Source of the DNA: Jaapia argillacea MUCL 33604
Lineage: Eukaryota > Basidiomycota > Agaricomycetes > Jaapiales > Jaapiaceae
DNA length: 64,000 bases
Direction of reading: 5' to 3'
NCBI GenBank assembly: GCA_000697665.1
Contig: KL197748.1
Span: forward strand, 181,328 to 245,327
The position numbers and the translations under genes are program-made. This document shows, one piece after another, positions 1,631 to 53,644 of this stretch. The notes under the pieces are model-generated. The model saw nothing but the letters and a program-made list of their open reading frames with translations, was not told where the DNA came from and did not search any database. Position 1 is the stretch's first letter. Each line of letters opens with the position of its first letter.

Positions 1631-3842
1631 GGATTTTGAAGTAGGCTCGAATGAACTTATCTCGGTTTACACCGGAGCCGAGCCCGAATGGAACGGATGA
1701 GACATATTCGGGGGATGGTGGAGTAGAAGAGGCTTGAAGTGATGGCTAGATTATGAAGAAACTTGACGATTGAAGTTCGGAATAAATCAATATCTGGATA
1801 AAGAACATTAAGTGACTATTAAGGATCAGGATCCGATATGAACGAGACGTGATACATACTATTCGAAACAGCGTCGCCCCGCACTGGGATGAGACTCTCT
1901 GACGCGCCTTTGATCCTCTATATATGCCGAGGTCGGGTGCAGGTTGAACGTATCTCGGATATCATTGAATGACAAAAGAGGCTCGAAGGGATAGATATTG
2001 GTATAAGATACAAATCAAAATCTAGGTAGAACACCTTCAGAGATCAGGAGCGGCTATGAATAAGGGTAGGGATACGTACCATGATAATACAGTCAGGTAC
2101 CGGACGGACGAGTTTCCATGGATATCATTCAAGGTCTCCCACCATTTTCCGGGTATACGCCGCCGTAAACAGCGTACACCTTCACTCGCATACACCTTCC
2201 CCTATCCCTGTACCCCTTCAACGTCGGCATTGAAGCGCCAACGTATTAACACAGATTCCGTACCTCACATGCCTACCTCCTCCTCCTCCTCCCCACTATA
2301 AGGTATACGCGAAGGAAATGTACCTCGGGATACACTCTGTCAATCACCAGAAGACAAAAGGTAGGCGCACGCTTGGATGGAACAGATATTGGTATATGCT
2401 CCAGGCGGAACCTATCTTGATACACCAGTGGGAAGTATCTCGGTAGATGGGGGGATTGGATGGATCTCGAATACACTTGGACAGAACTTCGGTATAACAC
2501 GAAGATCCGATATTTTTCAAGGCTCAAGAGACAGAGTATGGGTATCGGGCAAAGTCCACGAAGCTGGGAGGTATGATGATATTGGTGTAGACCTAGATAC
2601 CGAAGGGTCGAGAATCAGGGGTAGGATGTGAACGAGGAGTGAGATACATACCTTAGAATGTAACCTTGCGTCCGACAGACGAGATTCTATGGTATCCCTC
2701 GGGATGATCCCATGTTTAAAACGCAGAACTGTGACGACAAGCACACATCGCCCCACGACTACACCTCCTCACCACACAAGCCCTCCCACCACGCAAGCCC
2801 TCCCACCACACACGCCCTCTCATTTCACCTCTTCCACGCACGCAACCCAATCGGCCCACATCCCAACCCCCTTCAACCCCATCAAACCTCCCAACCCCAG
2901 CAATACCTCCCCTACCACCCTCAACCCCGTCACCCAAGTGCCAAATCATTAAACGCGTCTCTAACCTCACATAAGCAACCCACCCCCTCCCGTTATATGT
3001 TCCAAGGAAGCCGTTTCGTGCTTAGGTTCGAGTGACATCACGGTTAGACTCGAAGAAGATTCCGCCAAGGTCGAACGGCAGCAGACGAGGTTGTCGTGAA
3101 GTCGACGAAGCTGGAATGTATGATGGAATTGATGTATGGTATAGATGATGAAACTTCGGGGTCAAGATCTAGATAAAAAAGGAGTTCAATCAGAGGTGTG
3201 ACAAACGAAGGGAGGGGTACGTACCTTTGGATACAACGCGGTTCCCGACCCCATACTTACTCGTTCGTTGATATACCAGCACATCCTCCCACAACGTACA
3301 CGCAGCCTATTACCTCCCACATCCTCCCACATCCAAGGTTCCCCTCCCACCACCGCACCCAAACATTAGTTCCCAACCCCTGGCAGAACTTTCAACACGT
3401 CCCCTACCTCCTCCGAATCATCATCCAAGCCCGACCTCCCACCAACCCCGTCTACAACCTCAAATACCCATCGCCCATCCCGGTATACCACTCCGATCGA
3501 CTGGTATCGCTATTAGGCTCGACCAAGCTTGGCCGGGATTCCGTCAAGGTCGAACGGCAGAGGGGTATCGAACAGAGGACGATGAGGTAAGGTAGGTAAG
3601 ACTTGAAGGTATAATGATAGATTAAGGTATAGATTATGACCAAATTTCGAATCTAAATCACTTCGGGTTCAGAAATTAGGGAGGGAGGCGAACGAAGAGC
3701 AGAGATTACACACTTTTGGAGTACATCGCTGTTCGCGATGGACGAGATATGATCCTTCCTGTACCAGACCACCACAACCCAACGTTCTTCCCACCACATA
3801 CTCCCACATCCCCTCCCTACAACCTAACCCCACCACGTCCCC
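1630..3842. repeat. Degenerate tandem array of about 500-570-bp units, about five copies
   Basis: A recurring module (a stretch like GATCTAGATA, then GAACGA, then GATACGTACC, then a CGGACGAG-like stretch, then a C-rich CCTCCCAC tract) has anchors near 1,837, 2,053, 2,628, 3,195 and 3,685. Spacing is mostly 490-575 bp. Copies are strongly diverged. The array abuts the 3' end of Q1, and two to three copies of the same module sit at the same place beside Q2 (anchors near 36,022 and 36,535). A short (TCC)n run lies at about 2,277-2,296. No convincing reading frame runs through the units. Confidence 0.6.
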
Positions 3843-5242
3843 CTACCTCCCAACCCCAGCAAGGACCTTAAAAACCTCGCCCTGCCTCTCCCTAAACGCC
3901 TTCAACCTAGTCATCCCAAGCGTCAACCCATTAACCCTATTCACAAACCCCACTTCCCCTCCCCTACCCCCCACACTAACACCTTTCTCAAGCGCCTCCC
4001 TCACCCTATCCATCCTCGGTTCTGGTATCTCCATCGCACCGCTCGATAAGAGTTGAACGGCGTGAATAGAATCTTCATCTTCCATCTTCCTGATCTCTGC
4101 TCCGATCGCTCCCAACTTTTTCATGAACGGTCTCAACTCAGCCGGGCATTCTATCAGGGTTAACCGCTGGCCCAAAACGCCTCGCGCCGAGCCGTCGTGG
4201 GGGTCGATACAGTTTATACTCATATCGAGTATGGCGAGAGCTACAGAGGCGAAGTATGCTCGTGGGGGGTCAGATTTGAGGAGGGAACGGATGGAAGGGT
4301 GGAGGGAGATGACGTCTGCCAACGTCGCATAAAGCGTCTCTCGGATTAGTTCAATAGCGGGGGATGTGGTGGAGAGGATCGTCGGTGACGGAGGTCGGGA
4401 GATCTGTTGTTTTGATGATGATGCTGATGTGGAGGAGTATGGGGAAGAAGGAACGAGGAGGGAAGAGGATGATTGGTTTCGATTGTGTGTTGGTTTGGGT
4501 GGTGGACGGGGAGGCAAGTCTGGGGGTGGGAGTGAAGAGGTCGACGGAGCCGAAGGCAGCTGGGTGGTTTGCGTACGTGGAGAAGGTTCGGGCGAAGGGG
4601 TGGGAGAAGGGTAGTACACGGGTGGAGGCTTGAACGAAGCTTTAACTTGTCTCCTACCCGGCGAACTGATATCCTGCCCCGCATCAATAGCAGCCTGCAA
4701 GTCATCTCCATACCTCTCCTGAAACGTCCTCCTCTGACTAATCTCAATCGCCACCGCTCTCAAATCTCCCGCAATCCTCGGTATATCATCGCTACCCCCA
4801 CCGACTTGAAGAGGCGGCAAGGAACAGATGGCGCGTGCGAGGTCGTGTTGGGATTCGGGGGTCAGGGATTGGATTGGGGTTACGTTTTGGGCCCAGATGC
4901 GGAGGTAGGGGAGGAAGGAGGGGGGACAGTTTGATTCGGTTAGTTGGTGGGGTGGGGTGGCCTTTGGTAGGCGGGGGAGGGGGACTGAGGGAGGTAGAGT
5001 AGTGCAGCGGAGTGCGGCGAAGTATAGGCAGAGTGCTGGACCTGGGTGTACGATTAGCTAAAGTCGGGATGGGAGAGAAGAGAAGACGTACCTGCGATCA
5101 TGATATCTGCTTCTGCGCTGCTCAGGACGTCTACATCGAGTAATCGCTCGACCTTTGCTTGCGTCAGCGATGATTTAAGGTAGGAATGGAAGGCATCTTG
5201 GACGTAGTCTTCCGACAGTGTGAGTTCGTCTGTGGCTGTCAT
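3843..5242 (-). CDS. Q1: unrecognised proline-rich protein, 449 aa, intact
   Basis: Two exons: 5242-5092 and 5041-3843, with a 50-bp intron (GTACGT..CCCAG) that preserves phase; the model gives 449 residues. The start is chosen because the same ATG, TATA box and intron position recur in Q2. Residues 1-50 are acidic and helical (EDYVQDAFHSYLK, AEADIMIAG). The middle holds DIPRIAGDLRAVAIEISQRR, a basic PGRRQVKASF stretch and then a long Pro/Ser-rich linker. The C-terminal part is conserved (AIELIRETLYATLADV, ARGVLGQRLTLIECPAE) and ends in LTLGMTRLKAFRERQGEVF. I recognise no domain, signal peptide or membrane segment. The close paralog Q2 keeps frame and splice sites, which argues for selection on the protein. 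Relics Q3 and Q4 lie at 17.4 and 60.1 kb. Confidence 0.8.
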
Positions 5243-5278
5243 GGTAGTTTTGTGTGGTAGGAAGAGTGGTTGGACTGG

Positions 5279-5285
5279 TTATATA
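5279..5285 (-). promoter_or_regulatory. TATA box of Q1
   Basis: TATATAA on the minus strand lies about 36 nt before the Q1 ATG. The box and the sequence between it and the ATG are retained in Q2 (38,149-38,155), implying a very short 5' leader. Confidence 0.6.
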
Positions 5286-5289
5286 CACG

Positions 5290-7500
5290 GAGGTGGGGAG
5301 CGGAAGTGGGGAACGGAGGTGGAAGAAGGACGGGTTTGCTCCGCAGGCTGTGTTGACGGAAGTGAACCAAGTCCGATTGGATGGCTGTGATTGGCTGATA
5401 TCATCGTCGGAGCTTGGGTTAGGTTTCCAATTATGGCAATTGTCCTTCCTCAGTTTCCTTGAGCTCAACTGTCGGGCCGCGCTGGCTATTACACCTCCCA
5501 AGTAATATCTCGGGCGACCTGTAGTATTGGTGCTCTGTTGCAGCAACAACACTTATTTGGACACTACAATATCTCTGCAACAATCCACGACGAGCCCGCC
5601 CATCTTCAAGTTCCAACCCGACTTCGTCACATCCGCCGAGCACGAAGGAAGTGACTGACGTGTAGGACGTCTCTCATCGTGAACCCGGGTCGCTATCCCT
5701 GAAATTGCACGGTTGCAAATATGAAGGCGTCGCTACTGAAGTACTGAAGTACTGACATCTGGAGATGCGGCATTATCTTGTATTCGCTCCGAACTGGTCT
5801 CCGAAAACATCAAGAACCGATTAAAGTTAAAATTGGCGATAGAGAGGCTAACGACATCACCAGACTCTCAAAATCTCACCCTCGGGACCGCTTGTCTCGT
5901 ATCTCGGTTTAGAACGCTGGAAACGCCTCACAGCCGGTCTCTCCGCTTCTCATGCCACCAAAATGTCCTCGACACCAAGCTGTTTGAGAGACCTCTGGCC
6001 CACTTGACCACCCTATAATACTCCTGGAATTACATGTGTTTCGGCCGGGCCATTCGATCTCGAGTTCTCTTCGCGTCATCCGCCATTGCTTGACCAACCC
6101 TGAAATCACCAGCGACCAACTTCCCCGCTTACTCTCGCAAACAATGGCATTCGTTTCTTCTCTCTTTGGCTGTCCTAGTCCCAAACTGATCAAGATGCTT
6201 GCGTTGTCGTTTTGAAAGCCGATCGGATCTGGAAATCTCCTACAACAGTCAAAGATGAACCCTTCCCTACTCCCTCATTCGACCAAAGAGAATAGACGCG
6301 GATAATATCTACATCGTACGTCTATCGTCGAATAGCTCGAAGCATCATCCATCTATCTGGTTGGTGGGGTTGAGGTTACAGCTTGCTACCCCGCCCGGAT
6401 CGCATCCACCAACCCTGACTCGTATCATCATGATGCTCGGACAAGATACAGATTTGGAGTCTCGTCATGATGTAGAAGCGGAGGAGAGAGTGTGGACAGT
6501 AGTCCCGGAAGAGGCAGGCATGAATGATACTCGAGTTGGTACGTCCGTTCGGATGGATCCTGTCGAGAGCCTCTACTGACTAGTTGATTGGGAATGGCTT
6601 TGTAGGTGAAAGAAAAGGAGATGAAACCTAATTCATCTCTCCAACTATTACTCTCGGACTACCTTCATGGGTGTTTGGTCGTCTCCACCATCCCTTTCAT
6701 TGATTGAGACGGGCGCCGTGACAGTTAATCTGCTCTTTAGGATACTACACAAGCTACTATCTTTCCGACGGAGCTCGTCTTCCCGACCAATTCACGAGCT
6801 TCATCCCTCGATACTTCGTCAAAATCATCAATTGCATTCTTATTCTTACCCATCGATCTCCACAGACTAATCTCCCCCTCTCAACAGCACCCAGGCAGAC
6901 TCGGATGTTCGCAATGTATGGTCACTCAGGTCCGGATATCAGAAACGTTGCGGTACGACACTTTGTGCAGGACCATTTCGGATCTGGCGATGGGAGAAGT
7001 CGTCGGTCTCGAATATTTAGAACCTGTCGTGGGCAGAAACCACAGCCACGCGACCAAGACGATGAGAGTTAATGCTCCCCCGATTGTAAGTCAACGCCAG
7101 ATGAGTCGCTTTTCTTCTTCACATCTTCATTGTCAAGCACAAGGATATCGCAGCACACCGCTCGACTGTAAGCTCAGGGCGGCTACTTGTGGAGGTTGGG
7201 TGGTACGGCCTTGGCCGACCCTAGTCCCTTATCGATTGTAACAGGCGCCCAAGTTCATAGGCCTCACGATTTGGGCATGCCTGCAGCCGAACAAGATGCC
7301 TAAATGCAAGCTTCGGGTGAGATACGATTCATAACGCTAGTTCCCACTAATATCGGGTGCGAACTTGGTTAGACCCCCCGAACGCCTCATTGGCGGAGGA
7401 AATATGCCGACTTCAACTAATTTAACATCATCAATTGCTTCAAAATCGTCCCAGCCCTTCGGATGTCTACTTGCTAGGAGGGAAATTGCAGATGATGTGC
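5290..7500. other. T1: degenerate region homologous to 39,200-41,210
   Basis: Past the Q1 promoter (to about 5,450) no intact gene is visible. Pieces align with the T2 region. Around 5,950-6,050 the text CGCTTCTCATGCCACC..ACTTGACCACCCTAT resembles 39,970-40,050. At 6,900-6,960 a stretch reads MYGHSGPDIRNVAVRHF, against MYGRSGLDIRNIAVQRF at about 41,030. These look like eroded exons of one small gene; the frame is not maintained. From 7,260 to 7,500 I see nothing recognisable. Confidence 0.45.
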
Positions 7501-8025: not shown

Positions 8026-9688
8026 ATGTCCATCTCTAAAGCCCTGCTACTCACAGCCCTCAGCGCAGTTCTCGTCGTTTCGGTGGCCGCTTTTCCCATC
8101 GTTAGAGAGGTCGTCTGTATCAACACCACCTACCGCGACATCCTCGTCTTTTTCGGAGTCAACTTCCTTGCGCATGCCGGCACGATCCCCTCCATTGCCG
8201 GCGCCCGGTGGTACGAAACTACATGTTGGACAATCCTAGCTCTTCTATTTCCCTTTGCTGGGCTTGGGAGGTCGCTTGGGATAATTATTAGGCATTTAGG
8301 AGAGGGTAAAAGCGACCTGCGGAATGCAGAAAAGCAAGATGCTCTGTTATTCGTGGTGAGGTCAGCCGAATGGATGCCTGATAGGTCTCCCAGTAAAGTT
8401 TATGTGGAGCTACCGAAGGGCTTCTACAATCTGGATCAAACGTATGTCTTTCGGTCCTGACAGTTCTTCGATGGCTGTTAATCATCGCATGTACCCATGA
8501 CCCAGACCCACCACCCATGGCCCTCATCCCTCGGCGTCACTCGAGATCATCGATACTATGGATGACGCTATTGTCCCAAGGGAAAACGTCAAAATCCACG
8601 GCAAACCGATGTTACCAAGAGGCTATGACCTCGCTTACCCAAACCGCCTCTACCTTTCCGAAGTTTTCCCTTACAACTCCAAATCCAACGAAAATATTCG
8701 TCTCTGTCAATCGCATAGCTGGCTTAAAATGGTCATCTCCATCGCACAATTGGTGTATTCCTCCGTCACCTTATACGAGACTCGTGGCGACCAGCTGAAT
8801 CGGTATGGTTACGCCGCCTTTGGTTTATCCGTCTTTCCGTATACTCTCATGTCTCTCGCCAACCTCATCGTCGTTGGCCTGGTCGGCGAGTATCCGTGCT
8901 TGTACATACTCCGAACGGCAATCATGAACGAAGCCGAGAGACGGCCTGGAGGGTCATTCGGGGGAGCCGTTGGCAATTGCGAGGGAGATGATTCTCTCCA
9001 ACCATATGGTATGGATGTATCCTGCAAAGGACACCGTTGGAGTAGCTTCACCTGTGCAACAGTCTTAGTGGAAGGAGAAGTGCAGGAGAAGACCGAGAAG
9101 TTAGCAGGGGTCGACGGGGAGAGCACGGAGGACGGATTGGCGACAGAGGACGACATCGGGTTTTTGCCGAATAAATTGGTGGTTACAGTCAAGGGAGTCA
9201 CGAGGAAGTTCGAGTATCGGCATGGGGAAAGCGAAGCTGACTACGTCTTCAAGCTATTATCGTATGCCAATCAAGACCACATCCCGAATGGTGGCTACGT
9301 TGGCTCCCATGGGTCGTTGCGGTCGCAGTATCTGGCCGCGGGGCTACTGATCTTCGTGCCTCTCATATACCTGCTGCTCCCATACGTGGTCATCTTTGCT
9401 CTTAGTGGGTTCAAGACTCGAGGCAGCATCTTGGCACAGAGAGCCTGGCTGATGAGTTGGATAGCCTCGGGTCAACTCCTTCTCCTTGTCTTCCTTTTCC
9501 AATACCTCGAAAACCCGCATTTCAGGCTGGCAACATTCTCAATCCAACGTCGCCACCTTACAAGTTTCATCACGGGAAACAAGCTGCTCTTGTGTCTCCT
9601 CGTCCTCGCGATTCCTGCCGTCGGGGGCTTCATCATGGTTGGGAAGATGCTCGTGGAATTTGGTACATGTTCGCTCGCCCCAACTTGA
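8026..9688 (+). CDS. R1: multi-pass membrane protein, 532 aa
   Basis: Exons 8026-8441 and 8506-9688 flank a 64-bp intron (GTATGT..CCCAG) and stay in frame. I chose ATG 8026 rather than the upstream 7942 because it gives a clean signal/anchor (LLLTALSAVLVVSVAAF) directly after the TATA-bearing leader. About seven hydrophobic segments are visible: residues about 7-23, 65-85, 208-228, 240-265, 415-440, 455-475 and 498-520. A long variable acidic loop lies between the fourth and fifth. Conserved stretches include WLKMVISIAQLVYSS, LYETRGDQL, YGYAAFGLSVFPYTLMSLAN and CSLAPT at the end. It resembles an unnamed fungal integral-membrane family I cannot tie to a function. It is convergent with F-box gene S1, and the paralog R2 begins near 49.3 kb. 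Confidence 0.8.
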
Positions 9689-10019
9689 GCATGAAGGCCG
9701 TCTACATCTTTTTGTTTGGGCGTACAATTGAGAAGGGCTGATATATCAATCGACTCTTGGTACTCGACAATCATCATCAATGGACTTTCACATGCTCAGG
9801 CTCGATTTTGGTCTTCGTAGTTTGATGTACTCGTTTACAACAGATGGGCGGTATCGATAAGTATGTACTGTCTCTCATCTTGTACCGACGAATGTGAGCT
9901 TCTTGTATTTATATTCGAATTGAGCGTAGGGGGGAGAGCGAAATTAAAGTGAGAAGAATCACAACAGTTCAATTCGACACGTAGCGGTCGGCAAAATACA
10001 ATCTTCCTCACAACGGGAG
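9689..10019. other. Convergent R1/S1 intergenic region with a 112-bp perfectly duplicated core
   Basis: This 3'-3' spacer has no ORF of interest. Bases 9,804-9,915 are identical, base for base, to 50,598-50,709 in the duplicate block, whereas the neighbouring coding regions of the same duplication differ at many positions. It may hold shared 3'-end signals for both genes, or a recent gene-conversion tract. Confidence 0.55.
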
Positions 10020-11251
10020 CTATGGACAATCAACTAGGACGTCCGGCAGAGCTCTTTGAATCCACTCCGGCCCACCATGATTATGACGCACAGCATACAC
10101 AGCCTCCAAAGTCCCCCTAAAACACCCAAACATCTCCAAAGCTACATCTTGATATCCACCCATTCTCCGAACCCAACAACTCACTCGCCGGATTATGCGT
10201 AAGGGAGGTTTCGCCCTACATAACGAGATCCAGGTATACCACCCCCCAGAGTACTCTTTCAAGTTTGGCAGAGCTCCGCGCGGAAGGTGTACGAGGATGT
10301 CAGGACGCTTCCCGCCGGAATAGGCATGTGGAAAACATGCGTACAAGTCCAAAACCTCGATTGTAGGGTTGTTTACGAGGAATTCGCAAAAGTCTCTAGG
10401 GTCACATTCGATGAAGTTGAGTCTGAGGGTGCTAAGGTTGGGAAGGTGAATGGATGCGAGGGCTGGACCAAGATAGACGGAACGGGTCTTGAAAAAGTAG
10501 TCGTAACTGGAACAGTAACTGAATGATAGCCGAAGGGTCCGTAAGGTCGGGTTGTTGGAGAGGAATATGATGATGTGGTCTGTCCGAGGTTCGGTGTCAG
10601 GCTGTGGATGCCCCTGGTATTTATCGCCCATGGTCGTCTGAAAATCGAAAATCTCAAGCCCACGCACGGAGAAGAGCTAGCAATTGGAGTGTCCGTGAGG
10701 ATTTGGCCTCCATGGCACAATCCAAATTGGTGAATACGTACTTGAGAGTAGAATATGGACTTCTCATCAGCCTTCCCGGGAGCGTGCTCTCTAACCAGGA
10801 CATTCTTCAACTCGAGACAACCGGTCAACGCGTCCCAAAGGTCGGGAACACACCACAGGACATTGGGTCCCCATCCCCAGTTCCATTCAAATGTCCTTAG
10901 GAATGACATGTGTCTGATAGCACGACAAAGCATCCGTTCCTGCTCCTCCCATCCATGAAGACAAGGTGATTGGGGTATCCTAAGATTCTTGCTCTCGGAA
11001 CCACTTGCTATGCGGAGAAATCGAATGTTTCGACAGATGAGAGGGTTTTGGGAAAGGTGGTTCCAGATGTAGAAAAAGTTGGAGGAGATACGGGTGCGAA
11101 TCTCGCGGTAGGAGTATACATCGGGAAGGAGGATTTCATTGAAGGAGCGACATGTTAGGGCTAGGGAGAGGATATCGTTGCGATCGTCAACGAAGTGAAT
11201 GATGGATTCCACGAGTTCGACGGGAAGTCCGCCCAGTAATTTTGATGTCAT
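10020..11251 (-). CDS. S1: F-box protein with leucine-rich tail, 388 aa
   Basis: Exon 1 is 11251-10742, a 65-bp intron runs 10741-10677 (GTACGT..GCTAG), and exon 2 is 10676-10020. Residues about 7-45 form an F-box (GLPVELVESIIHFVDDRN, then LSLALTCRSF), the motif that docks substrate adaptors onto SKP1 in SCF ubiquitin ligases. The rest has irregular Leu-rich strands (TLRTLRLSFSYCSSYD, LSTLRLNFIECDPRDF) typical of fungal F-box families, likely the substrate-recognition part. Frame and splice sites are intact and shared with S4. The DUF6589/RecQ element begins 54 bp upstream of the ATG, so the original promoter now lies beyond 17,056; expression is therefore doubtful. Paralogs: S2 (broken), S3 (relic), S4 (intact). 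Confidence 0.85.
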
Positions 11252-11297
11252 GAGCGATGAGGATGGTTACGAGTAGGCTCTTCAAGTTGAACGATGC

Positions 11298-11305
11298 CTA
11301 ACGAC
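11298..11305. repeat. Target-site duplication CTAACGAC, left copy (right copy 17,048-17,055)
   Basis: The 8-mer CTAACGAC directly precedes the left terminus GTAGTCTCGC and directly follows the right terminus GCGAGACTAC. A perfect 8-bp direct duplication defines both ends of the element to the base. Confidence 0.9.
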
Positions 11306-11414
11306 GTAGTCTCGCGGGGCCAGACCGAGCACGTTGGCGGAGTTTGAAACTCGGGCGACACCCGAGTTGTGCTCGGTCTGGAGACTTTTGGCGCGTTTCC
11401 CCTGGATCGGTCAC
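11306..11414. repeat. Left end: outer TIR, nested hairpin, inner TIR
   Basis: Order: GTAGTCTCGC; a 13-bp perfect stem CCAGACCGAGCAC / GTGCTCGGTCTGG enclosing a second stem AACTCGGG / CCCGAGTT with a 5-nt loop; then the 38-bp inner repeat beginning TCTGGAGACTTTTGGCG. The loop side includes GGAGTTTGAA, also found in the right hairpin. Confidence 0.85.
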
Positions 11415-11476
11415 TGTTGTAACGATTTCGTGACCCGACGCGTCATTTCTTCAGAGTTTCCCTGCGATATTCCTTC

Positions 11477-14172
11477 ATGGCTGAGGCCGTTGACTACACC
11501 GACCTGTTTGACTCTGATGACGACTATGCACCTAATGACTCTGACTACGAAAGTGACTGGTCTGAATCATCCTCAGACTGCAGTATGGAGGAGGTTCCAA
11601 ATGTCATTGACATCGAGGAAGTGGAGGCAGTCCAGTTACAGAGAACACGCCAGCTAAAGGCCGACTTGGAGGGCAGGGAGAAGCTTCCGAGGGTTCTGGC
11701 TGTGTTGGCTGTGCTGGATGAAGTTAAGATGGATCTTGTTTTGTTCCTAGATGCCGTGTTGTGGGGAGACAGTGCATGTTCATCTGATCCAAAAGTCCGG
11801 TATCAGAGAACTGGGTTGATGCGAAGCAAGGAGCTTCCTGAAATCCTGGAACGCTGCTACGAGCCTCCTCAGAAGCCTGACCAGCGCGATGCACGTGTGG
11901 TTGGTGGACGGAAAACTCTTGAAGACTTTGCTGCCCATTGTATGGCAAATGTCATCAACCGAGAGCTCAAATCAGTCACGCGATTGATGTACACAGCTCA
12001 CCACGATTTATCGGAGACCACCTTGACCAGCTTTTCATTCACGAAAATGCCATCCCAGGTTCGTGCATTGGCTCCATGACTGTGGTCAATGCTGGAAGTG
12101 GCTGCTCGGTGTGAGAAGCAGCGAAGGAGTAAAACAAGGAAGGACCCTGTGAAGGTGAGAATTTGGTGACGCTGTATGTGAAAACAGATACTTACGAGGT
12201 CCAAGACCATTTTCCATCAGATTTGCCAGTCGTCATACATGTGATCCCATCACGCAAGTGCTTGTGCGCAGACATTGACTTTCTTTTTGCAATCCCTCGG
12301 TCTGTCTGCAAAGGGTTTGGACACTCTACACGCCCTGGGAGTCACGATGAGTCACAAATGGTCTGTCGAGGCAATCAAGAAGGTGTCGAAGAAAGCAATG
12401 GAAGACGCGCACCAATGTATTCACCGATTTCCGTGGATCTCCTCGCATGACAACGTCAACATCACACCCAAGGTCTACGAAGAATGAACGAAGAACAAGA
12501 ACCATTTCGACAATGGAACAGTCGGCACCATTTTCTTCAGGCCATTCGCACCCATTGGAGCACCCCTCTCGAATTCAGACCTGAAACGAAAGCGGACGGA
12601 AGGATCCGAACGACCAATTAGTATTGCGGAGATTATTGAGCTCGGACAGAAAGCCGCACTGCACATTCAGCGACAAGCAGTCCATCATGTTCTTCGATAC
12701 TTGCTGGAGTGCCCGGAATTTGACTACCCCACATACCAGCATCAAGACGACCCCTGCTTATACCCTCCTCAGCCTCGTAATTTGCTTCCAGACGGCCCAG
12801 AATCTATAACACAGCAGTTCGTGCTCGGTATCGTTCAAATTGAGGAGGCCAGCTACGAGGGCAATGAAAAGTTGCTCAAGGAGTGGTTTGCTCAGCTACG
12901 CCTGAACTCAGAACTGGAGAAGAAGGCTACTGGTGCTGAGAGGGTCATTCCTTGGATTGGAGACCAATTGACCATAGAACGGCTCTGTGGCCTCTTCAAG
13001 TTCCATTGCCAGGATTTGAATTCTTTTGACCGCCTTGATTGGCTGGTACTCATTTTCGGGTGGTTCCACCTGGAGATGGCTTTCGCGGGCTTGCTTCACA
13101 AGCAATACCTAGGGAGTGAGGCAGGTTGAGGATTGAAGCAAGCATTCATACTTCTTGGTCGGAAAAAATTGGTGAACGCAAATCTGACTGGCCACTGGTA
13201 TCATGCTCTTGATGAAGGAATTCAGCATGTAGCAGAAGCCAGATTCCGTTCTTGTTGGCGCGATGTGGGAGGTGTCAAGAACTTAGACGAGTTTCGGATG
13301 AAGTCACCACAAAGACTTCTTTGGCTGGCAGAGAAGATTGTGATGGAAAAGGCTTCCTCTCAGGCACTCAACGAACTTGACGAACTTGACGACAAGGAAT
13401 GCGACGCCATCTTACGACAGTCTGTGATGTGGAACCGTGATGTTTTGCATTATCTTGACCTGAAGGAGGCAATCAAGATTGGTGATGTGGGGCGAATGGA
13501 GGATCTCCTTCCATACTTGCTTTACCGATTTGCAGGTGGCAGGAATCCAAAGTATACAATAGAAGTACTTGAACTCCTCCAAGGACTGAATCGAGAATGG
13601 ACAGAAGAAATGAAGTGAGGAATGAACGACACTCTGAAGTACCGGGGACTTACTAAATTTAACAGGTCATTCGTCTGAGAAAACTGCTGGCTAATCAATA
13701 ACAGAGGGAGTCGGAACTCCTTCTATCCTGTTGATCTCGGGATTGAATACAATATCAAGGCAGCCAAGGTATGCATTTCCCTAGCTACACGACAATGTCA
13801 TGGTAACATTTGCTTCAGGTCACGTATTGAACGAGGGGTCCTAACGCCTCTTGGGATCAATTTTACAACATTGGGCCATGCATCCCCATCATTCGTGCTC
13901 TACAAGAGCACTTTGCTGCTGAATTCCCCACAACAAAGCGAGGATTATCCCACACGGTGCCAAGTAGGGAGGAGGATGTGACACTACTGGATGAGGCTGA
14001 CACAGTTGCTGAGGCAACCATCTTCGAGAAAGGACATGACGTCGATTTGGCGAAGGATAAGAGCGCCGACTATGTTACGGAAGGTGTGATAAATCTGACA
14101 GCGAAGAATATCATCAGTGATTGTTGGTACAGGAGAGACTTCCCCCGCTCAACGCAGGAGAAGTGGTGGTAG
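11477..14172 (+). pseudogene. DUF6589-type protein, candidate transposase, interrupted by TGA stops
   Basis: The ATG at 11477 opens an acidic N-terminus (DLFDSDDDYAPNDSDYES). Family landmarks follow in order: SHDNVNI near 12,450, NKNHFDNGT near 12,500, GDQLTIERLCGLFKFHCQD and LIFGWFHLEMAFAGLLHKQY near 12,960-13,110, a region around AEARFRSCWRDVG, then NCWLINNRG near 13,690 and a C-terminal part ending at 14,172. Introns are likely at about 12,140-12,184, 13,614-13,664 (branch-like TTACTAA) and 13,770-13,818. Five in-frame stops remain (about 12,077, 12,485, 13,127, 13,676, 13,827); all are TGA, and several sit where I expect Arg in the family. I recall DUF6589 as a large basidiomycete family of unknown function. 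Its conserved acidic residues and its place inside a TIR element suggest a transposase; this is inference. Confidence 0.75.
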
Positions 14173-14200
14173 ATACAGTAGACATACTAAGCAATAAATA

Positions 14201-16779
14201 TCACTTTTTGGTGTGGTGTGAAACCTCCTCTTCGGGCGAGCTCGTGCTGAACGGGAGAGAAGCCAGTGATGAGCAGAGCTGTTGAACGTCTGTATCTACA
14301 TTGTCCGGATATGGGTAAGGTGCTGAGGGTATTTGGGTTGCGGCGGATGGGTCTGATTGAAGTGACGAGGGCGCCGTAAAACGATGTGCACCTTGAAGAT
14401 AATTGTCGTAACGGTCCCAGTACTGGGACCAGTCGAAGGGTTGGAATGGTAGGGATAGTAAGAAGGGACATTGTACTAAAGTGGGGTCAGTAAGAGTATC
14501 TCGGTAATGGAGACGAGGTCTCACCTCTGGGCAATTTTGGACATCCGACGTAACGAGGACGGGTTGAGCGGAGGGCCCCGCAACCTGCCTGCAAACAACC
14601 CTCCAAGTTGATCCTGTGCTTCCTCTCTGGCCAGCCCTGATTGCCTCTCTCCGTTGCTGCTGAGCTCGCTTCACAGCTTCCGCCTGATGATGTCGTTCCT
14701 CGATCAACCTCTTCTTCACCTCACACTCCTCCAGAACCTTTGCCTCGCAATTCGCCTTCTCGACGTGGTCTAATCACTTCACCAACGTCAAAACCTCTTT
14801 GCCGTGGAGATCCAGGAACGACCATCCTTGACGAATTACAACACGCAGTTCTTCAATGTTGTTGACACGGCGATTCAATGCGACCGTGGTGAGAACCGCA
14901 TTTGGCAGAATTGCTTGAGCAGTGAATGGGGATGACGAGTATTTGTCCATGAACTTCGTCTTCCTCCACTGTAAAAGGGCAGCACGGACTTCCTTAAGGT
15001 GCTGGCCTCTGCGTCGCTGAGCTTCAGTGTGGCGAGGTGTGTGCATTGGGCGTTTGCCGTTACGATCAGGGGTGCTACTCGGTGACGATGGTGTGGTGGA
15101 AGAGGGAGTGGAGATAGGGGTGGTAGGGCAGTTGATTTCAGTGTCGAGAATGGGTGCTTCTGCAGTGGATGTAGGGAGCACCTTCCGAGCACAGTTATCA
15201 CAACAGAACTTGGGCCGTGCTGAACACTCGTCAGTCCCATGTCAAGGAAAGATACCGAGTAGAAAACTGACTCGGCGTGCGTGGAGGATTATGAAAGTAG
15301 ACATCCGCAACAATCCTACGGCAATCCTCAGTCTCAATCCACTCTCTCAGTCCCTGCTCAATGTGCTGATAATACTGGTCTATTTCTTCCTCATCCGAAT
15401 CCTCGTCACTCGAGCTATCCTCGTTGTCCTTCCGATTGTTGACCTTCTTCAAGACTGAGGGCTCGACAAGCAAAATGGTGCGAGCTCGGAGTGTCAAGTC
15501 TCGCCCGGCATGTCCAAGTCGTTGGAACCAGATCGAGAGTGTGGCGGGGATCCCAAATTGGACTACAAGGATAATATCAGGAATATCCATGCCCTGTCGA
15601 GAATCAGTAGGTATTCGAGAGCGATGAAAGGGCTCTGAGAGACTTACCATGCCCGCTGCATCAGTAGCGACCAAAATCCGAATGTTCTTGTCACGAAATG
15701 CCTCGAAAACATCTTCCTTCGCAGTGGGGTGCCTTTGAGCGTGGAGAAATGCAACTTTGTCCTTCAAATGGTCAGGTAGCTGTTTTCGTAACTCTCTCCA
15801 GACCTCTTGACACTGCACAACGGAATTGACGAAGACAACAGTACGTGGGAGGTCCTCTGCTGACCTCGCATTCTGGATAAGGAAGTCTAGCTCGCGGGTA
15901 TCTCCTGGTTTGCTCATAATGCGGACTTCCTGGTATATATTTGGCCTATCGTTTCCGAGATTAACGTGAAAGACGTCCTTGGGATCGATGAATAGTTTTT
16001 CGCGTATCTCGTCAAGAACGGCAGGGGGGAGTGTGGCGGAGTCTACAATGAAAGGAATCTTTCGTGGCACAAAGGCACGAAGTTCTCCAATGTGACCATA
16101 CTCCTTCCTAAAATCTCCACCCCATTGAGAAATACAATGTGCTTCGTCGACAACAAATGAGCTGATATCTTTGGAGAACGAGGGCTTGGTGAGAATTTTC
16201 TTGAACTCGTCATACTGCAGACACATCTCTGGGGAAGTTAGAATAACCTGGTATTTCCGATTCTTGATCTCCTGCAAATATATTCAGAAAGACTCATAAA
16301 AACCTGTGAAACTGCTTCGTACCTTGCCTAACTCGGAGGTCCATGTTTCACCATTGACGACAACCGTAGGAAGCCCCATATCATGAAACCGTCGAGCCTG
16401 TGATAGAGTTGAGAGCTCTTCATTCACGAAAGAAAACATCAAAGGGCTCACCTGATCGAGCTCAAGCATATTGAGGGGGTACAGGATGACAACCATTTTC
16501 TTTGTGTTCACAAAGGAGGGTAGGATAAATGCCAGAGATTTTCCATACCCTGTACCAGCAATCAACTCGCAGTTCAAACCAAGAAGCAAGGCCTCCACAA
16601 TGTCAAGCTGCCAATTGTGAGGTACCTTCCCCGTTCATGTTTTGCAGGTGTCTGACATCAATTTCCGAGTTGCCACAGAGTCATATTTCTTCGTCTGAGC
16701 GGCTTTCGATCTCGCAGCGTCAAGTTTGGAGTACGAGCGTTTGTGTATCTCGTCATGTGATAAGAGAACACTCGGCATG
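14201..16779 (-). pseudogene. RecQ-type DNA helicase, nearly intact
   Basis: Superfamily-2 helicase motifs appear in order: Walker A GTGYGKS (about 16,550), DEAH followed by CISQWG (about 16,140), SATLPP (about 16,030), ATDAAGM then GMDIPD (about 15,660-15,590), and QRLGHAGRD (about 15,530; the usual QRxGRAGRD with His for Arg). After an acidic linker (SSSDEDSDEEEID) comes a Cys pair region (CCDNC), then a helical module with LLQWRKTKF and a basic coiled coil to the stop at 14,201. Introns are likely near 16,314, 15,640-15,590, 15,275 and 14,520. Two in-frame TGA codons (about 16,635 and 14,774) interrupt it. Such helicases unwind DNA 3'-5' and are also known as telomere-linked helicases in fungi; here the gene sits inside a transposon, convergent with the DUF6589 gene. 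Confidence 0.8.
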
Positions 16780-16902
16780 ACTATAAAAGCACAGAGATGT
16801 CCAGAATAGCCAAGTCGGATCTGAAAAAGCAGGCCTTCAACAAGAAATCAACAAAACATAAATCGCCGTAAACAGAGCAAACCAGGTCACCAATCATGTG
16901 CC

Positions 16903-17047
16903 GTGACCGATCCAGGGGAAACACGCCAAAAGTCTCCAGACGTTCTATGGGTGCGGAATCTCCCGGTTTTTTGTTTCCACTTCAAACTCCAAGATCCCTG
17001 ATCTTTCTCCCTTTCCGCACCATAGAACGGATGGCTTGCGAGACTAC
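16903..17047. repeat. Right end: inner TIR, hairpin, outer TIR
   Basis: Mirror of the left end. The inner 38-bp repeat is followed by a 17-bp stem with one bulge (CGTTCTATGGGTGCGGAA / TTCCGCACCATAGAACG), then GCGAGACTAC. The stem sequence is unrelated to the left stem, while position and structure match. Confidence 0.85.
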
Positions 17048-17055
17048 CTAACGAC

Positions 17056-17394
17056 GCTAACTTAGGAACGATGAAGTGTTTTTGGGTGTCACAAGCATCA
17101 CGTGTCAGTGACAACGAGACATCGCTGAATACGTTTTACTTTTTGAACCTCTGGAGTGGTTGTCATATACTTATATATATATTCGAGCCCCAGGGCTAAG
17201 TTATTGACAGTCAGTATGTGGCACTTTCTTCGTCTCGATATCCCCATCGACTGACGTTGCGACCAGGGCAACTCCAAGAGATTCCTTTCCCCCCGGCCAC
17301 AGTGGCCACCCTGATTCCCCACCACGATGGGTTGACAGGAAGATTTTGTGAAGATTGCTGAGCTGGTGGTCGAAACAAGGGCAAAAATCAGGTA
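17056..17394 (-). promoter_or_regulatory. Displaced upstream region of F-box gene S1
   Basis: This stretch aligns with 52,520-52,750, the upstream region of F-box gene S2 (ACTTTTTGAAC, GTGGCACT, the ATCGACTGACGTTG / ATCGATTGACGTTG pair). It was therefore next to S1 before the 5.7-kb element inserted. A TATATATATA run lies at about 17,173. No gene is seen. Confidence 0.55.
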
Positions 17395-18480
17395 AACAAA
17401 TGAGCATCTCATCCCCCCTCCCTCACCTCTCAAAGATCTCAAAAGACAACACCCGACCACCAATTAACCAAATCAAACTGTCCACAATCCTTCCTCCCCT
17501 ACCTCTATATTTGGACTCAATATGTGACCCCAATCCAATCCATGACCCCCGAATCCCAACACGACCTCGCGCGTGCCATCTCTTCCCTCCCTCCACTTCA
17601 ACCATGTGAGTAACGGCGATATCCCCAGGATTGCGAGTGATTTAAGAGCGGTTGTGATTGGATTAGTCAGAGGAGGACTTTTCAGGTTCGGTATGGTGAT
17701 GATTTACAGACTGCTATCGATGCGTGGCAGGATATTAGTTCACCAGGTGGGAGGAAGGTCAAAGCTTCCTTCATGCTCCACCCGTGTACGAACCTTCACC
17801 TCCACCTTCTTCCTGACCTTCACCACGTACCCAAACCATGCAACTACCATCAACCCCAACCCCGACCTTGATCTTACGTCCAAACCCAGACCTCCCTCCC
17901 CGTCCATCAGCCACAGCCACACCCCAACGAAAACAATCATCCGCCTCCCTCCAAGTCCCGCCCTCCTCCATAGCCTCTCCCTCAAAACCCCCCCTCTCCC
18001 GTCCCCCATCACCAACAATCCTCTCCTCCACTGCCCCCGCCATCGAACTAATCCACGAAACACTCTACGCAACCCTAGCAGACATCCTCGAATGTCAACC
18101 TTCGCTCCCCCTCCTTCTCAAATCAGACCCTCCACAAGCATATTTCGCTTCAGTCTCTCGCCATACTCCATATGAGCCTCAACTGTATCGATCCTGAAGA
18201 TGGCTCAGCTTGAGGTGTCTTGGGTCAGAAATTGACTCTGGTAGAATGTCTGACAGAACTGAAAGGTTTCATGATAGAACTGGGATCGATCGGTCAGACT
18301 GTACGAGAAATGGAAGAGGGAGATTCCGAGACGGTCCTCCATCTTTTATCAGTGGGCGCGACGGAGATGCCCACAGGGAGTGGGAGGGAAACTCCTGAGG
18401 GTAGGACTGTGGCGTTTGTTAATAGGGTTAATGTGGTGGCTTTGGGGTTGACGGGGTTGAAGGCGTTTAGGGAGAGGCAG
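17395..18480 (+). pseudogene. Q3: decayed Q-family copy
   Basis: Homology to Q1/Q2 starts inside exon 2 (stretches reading TPESQHDLARAIS, then IPRIASDLRAVVIG) and runs to AFRERQGK at 18,480. The first exon is absent and the frame changes several times: the N-terminal half, the Pro-rich part and LIHETLYATLADIL fall in different frames, and a stop precedes the GVLGQKLTLVEC equivalent. Orientation is opposite to Q1. The next 400 bases to the KDZ element hold nothing recognisable. Confidence 0.7.
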
Positions 18481-18900
18481 GGCAAAGTTCAACCCAAACA
18501 ACACAGCAAGAAGGCATCTCTCTTGGATCCATTGACAAACCTGTATGCGTTGATACTGTGGGTTGGTCGGGACTTCGTCAGACGAGGGGAGAAGTCTTCT
18601 TGGGGTTTGGGAAGTCATTCTCAACCGCAGCTGATCACAGGTATGCTGGTTCCTCCAAGCTCGGAGGGTTTTTCTTGATACACAAGAGTAGGAATTGGTT
18701 AGTTGCCCTGTGGAAGGGGAAGGCAACCTCGGCTGGATGAGGTTGAACGATTGGCTGGCTGGACCCCCTCCATCAATATCCGACTCTGCAAGTGATAGGA
18801 TCGAAACGAGACTATTGACTACATGCTGTCGTCTCTCGAGCCCTGATCACGCAATTTTATTACTTGTTTCTTTTTTCTTGGTTCACGCCCACGTGTCCTG

Positions 18901-21101: not shown

Positions 21102-23917
21102 CTACACCTTTGCCATCCGGTTAATCACATTACGATTCCATATGTCCAGAAATACCTTTGTGAACTGTATGGCATGACCATACATCATGAAGCTCACACT
21201 TTTTCGGATGCGCTTCATTCCCTTGTTACCGCACTCCACTGCACTTGTGTTGACCATCTGTATGCAGTCATCATATCGCATGGCATTACTTGTGAAGCAA
21301 GCTTGACCGCAGCGAGTGTGGTCATGAGCATGCATCTCATCAATGAGGAAGCGAGTATGGCGAAAGTAGCGAGCTTCGCGGACTAGACAGTAGGGAGCTA
21401 GTTGACAGGCGAAGTCGTAGACAATAACCTGTGGTGCGACTGGAAATCGTGTGTAGATCGCAGAGAAGACATCGTTACGGCCTTCCGCAACAGGAATTGA
21501 GTGAAAGCCAAGACAGATCGCATGTGTGCACCACAGGACGAGAATGCTGCCAGTAAGACTGTTCTTGGAGTAGGTTTTGTAGAATTTATTACAATCGCCC
21601 ATCTGTTCGGCGTCGCGGTCGAGTGGTTGAGCATCGTAGTGAAGCTTTGAATAGTACCGTCGAAGACGAATTGGCGGGAGCCCATAGCATGTACCCGTTA
21701 TCTGCCACGGTTCTTGTGAAGTTGCTAATTCTTGCATTGGTTCAGCGGCGTCATGTTGCGCAAGTCAAGAGTAAACATTGGTGGCGCGTTCCGCTAGCCA
21801 ACCCGCAACTTTGCGTATCTGCCACGGTAAGGGAAGGTTGTGATCTCGATAGCTCTTGATAACCATGCCAATTGCAGGACATAAGCTTTGGAGCCAATCT
21901 GGCTCACTGTCTGACTGTGCAACACCTTGGAGAAGATCAATTGCGTCATATGGTACGAGCTGCAGCACGATATCAGGTGCGGCAATCTGCTGGATGAGGC
22001 TGCGATTTGCCTTGTATTGAGGAGATTGGATGCCACCCATGATGTAGAGCGAAATGAGATTGCTCAGGTCTGGGTAGAGCTGCCCCATAGTGACCCAATT
22101 ATCTGGCAGCAGATTCGTCGGTGCGAAATGTGTCGCAACGGTTACTTCAAGCACCTTCACTATAAAACTTCGTATCTCCACCTGGATGATAGCAGGGAGA
22201 GCACGAGCTTTCCAGGATGAAATTGATTTGATACATTCACTGGTTTGTAACACCTGTGTCGGTGGAGCAACAGTTGTGCTCATATGTGAGTGGTGTATTC
22301 CGAGACTGATCCCGTCTGCAATTACAATTTGCGGCGATGGTCTGCACGTTGGGCAGATCATCCCACTTTCAAGCTCTTGGAGGCTCGTGAATGCAAACCA
22401 GACTCGAACAAAGGTGTCGTCGGAACAGAAACTATTGTCGACCCCATACTCCAGGTAAGTGCGGCGGACTGTCAAGCAATACGCAGAGAATGGAGTCTCT
22501 GAGGCGGTATATGCATTCGTGAATCCATTGAGCAATTCGTGGGTGAAGAGCATGGAGTTGTTCCAATTGAATAGCCCAAATCGCGAAAGGTCTGCTCCAA
22601 TCTGACGACGCCGATGACAACATGAGGGGCAGGCAGCGAGCTCCATGAGTGCGTCGTAGCGCGTTGTCAACCCGTAGATGACTGCTGGTTTCGTCGTACC
22701 AACCAACAAAGGGATTGAGGATCCCAAAAAGCCACAACAGCATCGAGCTGTTTCGTCAAGCTTGAAGTGAGGTTCCTCGAATGTGAGACGTGATGACAAT
22801 CAGGACGCCTCAAATGGCAACAAACACCATCTTGGAGGAGCAATAGGGAGGTGAGAGATGCAAGCTTTGCTACTTGGGCCATCATCGAGTCCAGCAGCTT
22901 TGAACATGAGTGTGTTTTCCTCATCGGCCACTAAATCATTTGCGTCTACCTGTATCGTCGTATGGCTGGTATTGGCGATAAAGCCAGCGTCGATGGCGAA
23001 GGCCATTGCATGTGGTTTGTGCTTGCATCCACCGGAGTACTGACATGATTGGCAGTGCCATCGGCCATCTCATTGTAGGGATACGATACTTCTCTTGCCC
23101 GACTCAAACCGACCAGTAGACGAAATACACGAGAATATATGAGTGTCTCTGAATGGGGTGGTTTGGAGAAGAACAGCAGGTGGGGCGGGGGTAGGGGCAA
23201 TGGATGGAACAAAACAAAGGGCGTTGTAGTATTGTTGGATGATTCGTTGATGAAGGCATGCATGATGTGACCGCCATTTCGGACACGTACATGCCACCCC
23301 GTATTCGTCTGGGCCTCGAGGTAACCGAATGATATGGTAGTATCCACCAATCTATTGCGCCGTTCAGTGCGAAATTCATATGAGGTAGCCACAACACTCA
23401 CTCAAAGCATATCTTGTTGGTGGTCCCAGTCTTGAAGTACCCATAGAAAAGAATCAATACGAAAAATGGACCCGATCCTTGACAAAGCACGCCAGTATGC
23501 GGCACTTGTTTCCGTATCTGCAGTGTCATCAACTGTCAGCAGGGGAACAGATGGCAGACCCATATCGTCACTCAAGGCATAGGCCTCAAATAGCAACTGG
23601 ATGGCAGCACTGTCCCATACTGCAAAGTCCGAGTCTGGGGGTGCCACGTCATCGACGCTAAGCGGGGGTGGAAGATCGTCTTCATGCTCGAGAGCTGTGA
23701 CCGCGACGGGTAGCAATGAAGTATTCGGTGCAGCGTGGTGCACCCCCAATGCTTGGAGGGAGGAATTCGGTGTTGTCTGCGGCACCGATGAGGTTGGCGC
23801 CAATAGTGTATCATTTTGGATTGATTTCTTCGCTTGTTTACGGGCACCATCCTTGTGAAACTTCCCATCCTCAACGACAAGTCTACTACTCTTGAATGTC
23901 GTAGACGGGGTGGTCAA
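21102..23917 (-). pseudogene. KDZ-family transposase, probably one in-frame stop
   Basis: Multi-exon gene from ATG 23917 to stop at 21,102. In order: a variable N-terminus; a SWIM-like/CxC cysteine cluster (ACTCPKWRSHHACLH, about 23,270); WHCQSCQYSGGCKHKPH (about 23,030); a Cys-rich module (LMELAACPSCCHRRRQIG, then NNSMLFTHELLNGF, and ICPTCRPSPQIVIADG, about 22,660-22,300); a helical stretch; and the catalytic region with VYDFACQLAPYC (about 21,420), IDEMHAHDHTRCGQA and SAVECGNKGMKRIRKSVSFM (about 21,240). These are the KDZ RNase-H-fold landmarks and the CxC clusters known to accompany them. A TGA at about 21,765 interrupts the frame just before the catalytic part and no splice site removes it, so this copy may be inactive. 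It is convergent with the partner gene. Confidence 0.75.
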
Positions 23918-31553: not shown

Positions 31554-31922
31554 TCGTCACAACCAATCCGGCGGGGGTTGTGACACTGGACAGGCCCGCC
31601 GCTTTGGGGATGAGCGGCGGGGAGGTCTGTGACACTGGACAGAGGGGTCAAAAGCGGCCGGGATGTCGGTCCAACATGACCAAAAGCAGTGCCGCAGGCG
31701 TGCTACGGAAGCGTCCCCAACGACACGACGGCATTTTGAGGTTTATTGGACTGTTCGGGCCGTTTTCTGCCCCCAGAGCCCCGCAGGGACAAAAAGTTTA
31801 GGTTATTTCAATTTGTGGAATAACTGTCACAAGCGGCGGGGGCGGCTGTGACAGTGGACACGAGCCAAAATCCGGCGTCGGCAGAGCATTCGTGACATGT
31901 GACTGCCGCTTTGGTCGTGACA
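31554..31922. mobile_element. 369-bp MITE with TIRs and 8-bp TSD, inside LINE ORF2
   Basis: Flanked by ATACTGTA (31,546-31,553) and ATACAGTA (31,923-31,930), an 8-bp duplication with one difference. The ends TCGTCACAACCAATCCGGC and, inverted, TGTCACGACCAAAGCGGC match over about 18 bp. It is GC-rich, contains two copies of GTGACACTGGACAG, and encodes nothing. It separates the RT region from the following thumb-like part of ORF2. An 8-bp TSD with short TIRs fits a hAT-like or similar non-autonomous element. Confidence 0.7.
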
Positions 31923-38108: not shown

Positions 38109-38148
38109 GGTACTGGTGGTTGTGTGATCGGAAGAGTGGTCGGAGTGG

Positions 38149-38155
38149 TTATATA
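38149..38155 (-). promoter_or_regulatory. TATA box of Q2
   Basis: TATATAA lies about 40 nt upstream of the Q2 ATG, within sequence shared with the Q1 promoter. Confidence 0.6.
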
Positions 38156-43492: not shown

Positions 43493-43548
43493 GCTGTAGA
43501 ATGGGACACTGACACCTCAAAATCACAGCTAGCCGCCCTAGTCAATGA

Positions 43549-50816: not shown

Positions 50817-52343
50817 TGGACAATCAACTAGGACGTCCGGCAGAGCCCTCTGAATCCACTCCGGCCCACCATGATAATTACGCACAGCATACACAGCCTC
50901 CAAAGTCCCCCTAAAACACTCAAACATCTCCAAAGCTATATCTTGATACCCACCCATTCTCCGAACCCTACAATGTCACGTTCTTTTTATTTCCGATCAC
51001 CTGACCTGTAGAACATTCCTTAGTATTCTAATCAGTAGCATTAAGATCTCAGTATGACGCCTTATTGCACCATCGGACTATTCTTAGCTAGCCATGTAGT
51101 ATATAAGCTTGTACCATCTTAATGCAAACCCCAGTCTTGAGCTGGTCTATTCCAAACCAGCCACTCTTGTGTGTCATCGGTCGACCTCATTACTCCTTGA
51201 TCGCTATTCGCACTCCTCATCCAGCGCTGCTGCCAGTCACATCCCTGGTTGTTGTTTGTTGCTGACATACAACCCACCCTCCGCACTATGCGTAAGGGGG
51301 GATTCGCCCTACATAACGAGATCCAGGTGTACCACCCCCCAGAGTAGTCTTTCAAGTTTGGCAGAGCTCCGCGCGGAAGGTGTACGAGGATATCAGGACG
51401 CTTCCCGCCGGAATAGGCATGTGGAAAACATGCATACAAGTCCAAAACCTCGATCGTTGGGTTGTTTACGAGGAATTCGGAGAAGACTCCAGGGTCGCAT
51501 TCGATGAAGCTGAGTCTGAGGGTGTGAAGGTTGGGAAGGTGGATGGATGCGAGGGCTGGACCGAGATAGACGGAACGGGTCTTGAAAAGTAGTCGTAACT
51601 GGAACAGTAACTGAATGATAGTCGGAGGGTCTGTAACGTCGGGTTGTTGGAGAGGAATGCGATGATGTGGTCGGTCCGAGGTTCCGTGTCGGGTTGTGGA
51701 TGTCCAGGGTATTTATCGCCCAAGCTTGTCTGAAAATCGAAATTCTCAAGCCCACGGACGGAGAAAAGCTAGCAATTGGAGTATCCGTGAGGATTTGGCT
51801 TCCATGGTACAACCCAAGTTGGTGAATACATACCTGAGAGTAGAATATTGACTTCCCATCAGCCTTCCCGGGAACGCGCTCTTCAACCAGGACGTTTTCC
51901 AACTCGAGACAACAGGTCAACGCGTCCCAAAGGCCAGGAACACACCACAAAACATTGGGCCCCCACCCCCAATCCCATTGAAATGTCTTTAAGAACTTCA
52001 TCTGCTTGATAGCCCGACACAGCACCCTCTCCTGCTCCTCCATTCCAACAAGACAAGACGATTTCTGGATCCTAGGGTTCCTCGTCACGGAATCGGTTGA
52101 GATACGAATAAATCGGATTTGTCGACACATGAGAGGGTTTTGAGAGAGGTGGTTCCAGACGTAGAAAAAGTTGGAGGATATACGGGTGTGGATTTTGCGG
52201 TAGGAGTATACATCGGGGAGGAGGATTTCTTTACAGGAGCGACACGTTAGGGCTAGGGAGAGGATATCCTTGCGATCGCCAATGAAGTGAATGATCGATT
52301 CAACCAGCTCGACGGGAAGTCCGCCCAGGAATGTCAATGTCAT
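50817..52343 (-). pseudogene. S2: F-box gene copy, broken
   Basis: Exon 1 (52343 to about 51,834) is open and encodes a good F-box (GGLPVELVESIIHFIGDRK, LSLALTCRSC). The intron matches S1. In exon 2 one base is missing relative to S1 in a run of A (near 51,583), which shifts the frame after SFSYCSSYDYF. Further on, the 294-bp solo LTR splits the sequence at 50,974-51,267. The C-terminal text (to EWIQ-like residues near 50,820) is still recognisable. Its upstream region, unlike that of S1, is undisturbed. Confidence 0.8.
50974..51267 (+). mobile_element. Solo LTR, 294-bp family, in F-box gene S2
   Basis: TGTCACGTTC..GTTGCTGACA flanked by TACAA on both sides (50,969-50,973 and 51,268-51,272), a clean 5-bp target duplication. 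It is absent from the same position in S1 and S4, so the empty site is known from paralogs. Same family as 117-410. Confidence 0.9.
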
Positions 52344-53644
52344 GGGTGATAAGTGTGGTTACGGGTATGGTATCATTCCAAGCCGGTTGAAGACTTGAAC
52401 GCAACAACGGAGATACGATGAGTAATATGGGAAGTCCAACCAGAGGTAGCGCGACTTCAAGCCTCTGTGCCAACGACGGAAGCAAGCAAGCGCGTCTCTT
52501 CCACACACCACAACAAATCGCCCATCCTCGAATACTTTTTGAACTTCTAGCTCGATGCTATATCTCCTCGGTTGCCATAATTTGAGCCATGCTGAGCGCG
52601 AAGCCATCGACGAACCTCACAGTCGGTACGTGGCACTCCCTTCTCGACATATTGTACCATCGATTGACGTTGAGACCGCGGACTCTCCTTTCCAGATATC
52701 CACCCGAACCACTCAGTGTGGCCGGTGGAGCTGCTCTTCTCGCCAACTTCCGCCCTAACTCATTCAACCATACTTAGTATTCCTCCAGGTTCGCGCCTGT
52801 ATCTGATGGGCAGGCCGTATTATCAAGGACCGCATCCCTCCTCAATATCATGAATTCTGCTGATATTCAACAATCAAGATTATTCCCTCGTATATTTCAA
52901 TAATCTTCGTTCTCGAACCACTACATAGCCGGAGCATATGCTTTTCACTCGTCCTGGACAAGGAAAAGGTGGTGCATCAGTGCTCCTCCTTCTCCTGACC
53001 AGTCGGTTCAAGTTCCTACCCTGGCTCATCTTCATCGTAGGAACGTTTAACCGGCTTCGCTACCAACCCTCTAAACTACGGAACCAAGTTGAACCGCAAC
53101 GCTGGATTGAATTTGTCGCCGAATCACTATTGTTTACAGCGAACCTGGAGAAGGAACACTTGAGAGTGTGCTTCAATCATGCCAGTGGGTGAGTTTGACC
53201 TCCTGTTTCTCGATCTGGTCATCGATGAACGTTTATTTTCTCCGCAATATCATTCCGTCGCAGAGTAGGTCTCCGCCGAATCTCATGCGGGAAAGGCCAG
53301 CGACTATGGTGTGTTTGGATTCTCGACGTCGTTACATTTCTTCCTCATACCGTCTTGTCGAGCGTACGATCTTCTGTCTCGCTATTTGCACAGTAAATCC
53401 CGTCGTTCCTGGATGAGGTGCGACTGAATTTACAAGCTGTCTCAGAGGGATCGTACCCTAAATCTTGCCAACTTGAACGCTTCCCTTGGATGGGCGAACC
53501 AACCTTGTTCCGTCACTTGGCAGTGAATGAACCGCCAAAGATCATTTAGACTTTGCTGGGTTTGATCGATTCGCCGACAGGCGCTCAAGAGCGGCATAAA
53601 CTGTATCAGATAGGCGCCGACTACTCCTGGAACAAACCTTCATC
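52344..53644. other. Divergent intergenic region S2 / MYND1
   Basis: The part nearest S2 (52,400-52,750) is shared with the displaced S1 upstream region at 17.1-17.4 kb. Short ORFs (for example 52,938-53,192) have no motifs. Probably promoters of both divergent genes; no gene seen. Confidence 0.45.

Follow-up and report, generated by a model that had tools for sequence, protein, structure and literature searches.

In the window, the whole stretch of 64 kb of DNA that was analysed, a bounded unit of 5.74 kb (11306-17047) was identified. With a probability of roughly 0.78, the unit is a decayed AcademH-type cut-and-paste DNA transposon with a DUF6589 protein as its DDE-type transposase. AcademH elements are helicase-bearing Academ DNA transposons and reportedly go back to work by Kojima from 2020, which is known here through papers that cite it. 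The features of the unit and of a related region are listed below with coordinates and strand.

11297..11306, no strand: target-site duplication, left copy, as the maximal 10-bp repeat CCTAACGACG (8-bp core CTAACGAC at 11298-11305)
11306..11315, plus strand: left outer terminal inverted repeat, reading GTAGTCTCGC (or TAGTCTCGC under a 10-bp duplication)
11320..11381, no strand: left-end private palindrome, from arms and fold
11376..11414, plus strand: inner inverted repeat, left, 39 bp
11477..14172, plus strand: broken gene for DUF6589, the probable transposase, interrupted by in-frame TGA stops and containing probable introns; ends placed by eye
14774..16778, minus strand: gene for the RecQ-type helicase, apparently broken by an in-frame TGA at 16635-16637 and containing probable introns; the low end is uncertain and likewise a TGA
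16903..16941, minus strand: inner inverted repeat, right, 39 bp
16941..17029, no strand: right-end private palindrome, from arms and fold
17038..17047, minus strand: outer terminal inverted repeat, right
17047..17056, no strand: maximal 10-bp direct repeat, right copy
51269..52860, no strand: paralogous region without the 5.7-kb insert, related to the target site; 52860 marks where the compared stretch stopped

The unit was flanked on both sides by the 8-bp direct repeat CTAACGAC (left copy 11298-11305, right copy 17048-17055). Its ends were formed by the 10-bp outer inverted repeat GTAGTCTCGC (11306-11315 on the plus strand, 17038-17047 on the minus strand), as stated in the initial annotation. 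The inner inverted repeat, which had been given as 38 bp, was present with a length of 39 bp (11376-11414 and 16903-16941, complementarity 97%), one base more than claimed. The maximal direct repeat was CCTAACGACG with 10 bp (11297-11306 and 17047-17056). The first G and the last C of the outer repeat belong equally well to the duplication, which may therefore measure 8, 9 or 10 bp. Three readings are exact: a duplication of 8 bp leaves GTAGTCTCGC as the ends, one of 10 bp leaves TAGTCTCGC, and an asymmetric one of 9 bp also holds. The 8-bp target duplication proposed earlier is thus one of several exact readings, namely the one obtained when the element ends are read symmetrically. For evaluation of the termini, the 300 bases lying beyond the inner repeat at either end were shuffled 2000 times. 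A 10-bp inverted repeat with an 8-bp direct repeat immediately next to it arose in 0/2000 shuffles, versus one such arrangement in the real sequence.

Insertion of the unit was assessed by comparison with the paralogous region. The left flank (10176-11275, an F-box-like gene by eye) was 87% identical to 51269-52367 over 1.1 kb. The right flank (17207-17264) was aligned to 52619-52677 with 77% identity over 60 columns, at a local score of 101, whereas 200 shuffles reached 52.5 at most. Since the paralogous region lacks the 5.74-kb unit, the unit is an insertion. The insertion junction in the paralogue is too diverged for base-by-base reading and hence yields no duplication length. Duplicated stretches that are approximately 70-87% alike were located at 3823-5436, 8527-11275, 17437-18482, 36689-38283, 49324-52367 and 60089-60731. 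Among them are an F-box-like gene, recognized by eye, and another gene of unknown kind; the stretches are usable as element-free references.

Two convergent genes had been described inside the unit, one of the DUF6589 type and one of the RecQ type, and both were recovered by profile searches (PF20231 and recQ_fam). Their first ATGs are located at 11477 (plus strand) and 16778 (minus strand), 62 and 124 bases from the inner repeat, respectively. As each gene begins a short distance inward of the inner repeat, this repeat may also act as a common promoter region.

The PF20231 (DUF6589) profile, which has a curated cut-off of 27 bits, matched two uninterrupted pieces of one frame (E-values 3.3e-42 and 3.1e-46; 145.1 and 158.3 bits). 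The read-through protein was matched with an E-value of 2.5e-103 and 346.4 bits (positions 3-366 of 410), and the last piece of the gene (13831-14172) reached 20.7 bits, below the cut-off. No Pfam-A family besides DUF6589 was detected in the read-through protein at E-values up to 0.1. In the frame from 11423 to 13678, eight in-frame stops were counted, all of them TGA and some in probable introns. The TGA at 13127 interrupts the frame between profile positions 166 and 172, where the two PF20231 matches adjoin. The number of frame breaks is uncertain because introns were placed by eye only; judged from the reading frame, a whole DUF6589 protein is very unlikely to be made from the present copy. 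CpG decay was considered as a source of the TGA stops and rejected, as CpG depletion was not specific to the DUF6589 gene or the element (CpG observed/expected: DUF6589 gene 0.69, element 0.78, left flank 0.95, right flank 0.68, bases 1-47900 0.79).

A RecQ helicase core was detected in the second gene. The helicase piece matched TIGR00614 (recQ_fam) with an E-value of 6.4e-37 and 127.4 bits, which is under the whole-protein curated cut-off of 219.8. The best match among solved structures was WRN (E-value 6.5e-20), and RecQ and RECQ1 were matched as well. With the hand-joined helicase peptide, the RecQ zinc-binding model yielded an E-value of 0.01 and 17 bits at a cut-off of 25, which is suggestive only. 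The helicase frame appears to be interrupted by the in-frame TGA at 16635-16637, with introns judged by eye.

The role of DUF6589 was analyzed by masking of single residues and recording the loss in PF20231 profile score. The matched region holds 55 acidic residues (one of which lies in a translated probable intron); 28 of them were masked, selected in part by motif. The largest acidic losses were recorded for E in GIEYN (7.6 bits, codon 13745), D in PVDLG (6.8 bits, codon 13733) and D in GDQLT (6.5 bits, codon 12962), the last being seen in two peptides. The next acidic residue was D in IGDVG with 4.3-4.4 bits, and the other 24 masked acidic residues lost at most 3.6 bits. Six non-acidic residues were also masked, resulting in losses of 7.6 bits for H of GWFH, 5.2 bits for T of GDQLT, and at most 3.4 bits for the other four. 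The histidine loses as much as the top acidic residue, which counts against the preferred reading. A candidate for the first D was noted in HDNVNI (12449), outside the Pfam profile. The masking pattern fits, without proving, a putative D...D/E catalytic set whose parts are separated by a long insert. Comparison of the read-through protein with solved structures gave a best E-value of 0.51, which is at chance level. On the evidence of conservation and gene content, DUF6589 is probably the transposase of the element. The suggested partnership of a DUF6589 transposase with a RecQ helicase fits the bounded insertion, the element-free paralogue and the conserved acidic residues.

A different role of DUF6589, as an accessory or captured protein whose element lost its moving enzyme from the present copy or was moved by an enzyme from another element, was rated highly improbable. 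The decay of the element agrees with this reading, as does the lack of support for an RNase-H fold (one-sequence structure prediction of DUF6589 with a mean pLDDT of 36 and a pTM of 0.22, unusable). It is opposed by the gene content, since the DUF6589 and helicase genes fill most of the element and, in the nine pieces scanned, all matches apart from the DUF6589 and helicase domains were below curated cut-offs. The strong conservation of D and E residues in the DUF6589 protein counts against it as well.

Relatives of the element were searched in the window and in sequence collections, none of them fungal by design. Within the 64-kb window, no second copy of the element was found, and no DUF6589 or helicase match outside it. 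The inner repeat, with up to 8 mismatches allowed, occurred only at its two places in the window. For the outer 10-bp repeat, four other one-mismatch matches were obtained in the window, judged from the list alone. A protein search of viral contigs with 12488-13129 (DUF6589) and 15231-16283 (helicase) revealed no relatives. A two-motif DNA pattern retrieved 3 viral and 10 prokaryote stretches, and 0/13 were related to the read-through protein (tblastn, best E-value 0.72). PF20231 had no match in one prokaryote genome and 14 control genomes, which is not proof of absence.

Other sequences of the window were inspected as well. A remnant of a KDZ transposase, bearing a CxC4 cysteine cluster, was located at 21102-22799 (minus strand). 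Together with the general distribution of such elements, it points to a basidiomycete as the probable host. LINE-like and Gypsy-like retroelement frames were recognized by eye from translations at 27961-33787 and 42575-47595; the LINE-like piece at 31802-32776 had a sub-threshold Pfam match only. A large palindrome at 38376-39043 matches its own reverse complement over 678 alignment columns with 87%, and a run of N of approximately 1 kb extends from 48166 to 49152.

The assignment to Academ was based on comparison with published systems. A RecQ helicase in Academ was named in 2013 with reference to Kapitonov et al. (PMC3627910). Recognisable domains, e.g. PF00270 and recQ_fam, were reported for 81% (1,568/1,938) of fungal Academ copies, and Academs are often annotated as host genes (PMC6416283). 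The pairing had been regarded as undescribed in the initial annotation; for a transposase and a RecQ helicase in general, these two papers contradict this. As such a combination in a DNA transposon is already described for Academ (PMC3627910, PMC6416283), assignment to Academ is better than a novel pairing, and what had been named the main competing assignment is now preferred. DUF6589 as the named partner of RecQ was not found in the literature searched, and searches for DUF6589, PF20231 and IPR046496 retrieved no relevant paper there.

Like AcademH, the element is a DNA transposon with a helicase gene; AcademH is known from Basidiomycota, Ascomycota and Mucoromycota (PMC10799480), and Academ insertions were described in the mushroom Marasmius oreades (PMC8290104). 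Features of Academ and AcademH that are present here are the RecQ-type helicase gene and the terminal inverted repeats (10-bp outer and 39-bp inner). Target duplications of 9-10 bp were reported for AcademH and of 3-4 bp for AcademX, a difference related to helicase and nuclease (PMC10045372). The 10-bp reading of the present duplication fits the AcademH range, whereas the symmetric 8-bp reading falls outside.

A separate superfamily was also considered, in which DUF6589 and RecQ are combined, duplications of 8 bp are made, and RecQ was gained independently of Academ, as in KolobokH. The symmetric termini GTAGTCTCGC imply an 8-bp duplication, RecQ also occurs in another superfamily (KolobokH, PMC9587614), and DUF6589 is unnamed in the literature searched. 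The 10-bp reading is equally exact, however, and the helicase agrees with printed accounts of fungal Academ (PMC6416283, PMC3627910), so that a separate superfamily was judged unlikely.

Between the outer and inner repeats, each end carries one palindrome, which is private to that end; the two are unalike by eye. The left palindrome (11320-11381) has perfect 13-bp outer arms and overlaps the start of the inner repeat. The right one (16941-17029) has perfect 10-bp outer arms. In folding of the left end (11306-11425; z -3.26) and the right end (16930-17047; z -4.55), 0/200 shuffles folded as well in each case. Such end-specific palindromes are an unusual detail of the element. That they are helicase substrates, in an element whose DUF6589 forms a separate superfamily of DDE transposases, with 8-bp duplications and a RecQ recruited independently of Academ, was considered quite unlikely.

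Assignment to a RecQ-bearing Kolobok (KolobokH), hAT, KDZ or Helitron element is largely contradicted and was rated extremely improbable. A target duplication argues against Helitron, and one is present here. KolobokH carries RecQ in a DNA transposon, and in Kolobok-1_CCri it sits on the complementary strand as in the present element (PMC9587614). KolobokH differs by its 4-bp TTAA duplication, the flanking duplication here being CCTAACGACG and not TTAA; its transposase superfamily is set apart by name only. The KDZ (Kyakuja-Dileera-Zisupton) elements are DNA transposons common in fungi, and duplications of 8 bp are made by Zisupton and most hAT elements (PMC12730594); the KDZ remnant (21102-22799) lies nearby. 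Nevertheless, the read-through protein was without a KDZ, hAT or other transposase model at E-values up to 0.1, including the KDZ domain PF18758 and the hAT transposase or dimerisation domain, and its N-terminal piece was without an above-cut-off match. The KDZ domain was thus not detected in the DUF6589 protein of the element.

For the preferred AcademH-type transposon, the following course of transposition is proposed. The DUF6589 protein, as a DDE-type transposase, would bind the terminal and inner inverted repeats, cut both element ends and join them to target cuts staggered by 8-10 bp. Filling-in of the staggered target cuts would create the target duplication. The RecQ-type helicase, whose gene is read from the opposite end, may unwind DNA at the ends or in an integration or repair intermediate. 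The relationship between DUF6589 and the Academ transposase is putative.

The analysis thereby provides a functional proposal for DUF6589, a family without assigned function: in Academ-type elements that carry a helicase, it would act as the transposase. Should DUF6589 turn out to be unrelated to Academ, the element would add to KolobokH another case in which a transposase was independently paired with RecQ. The proposal would help annotators to remove DUF6589 genes from fungal host gene sets.
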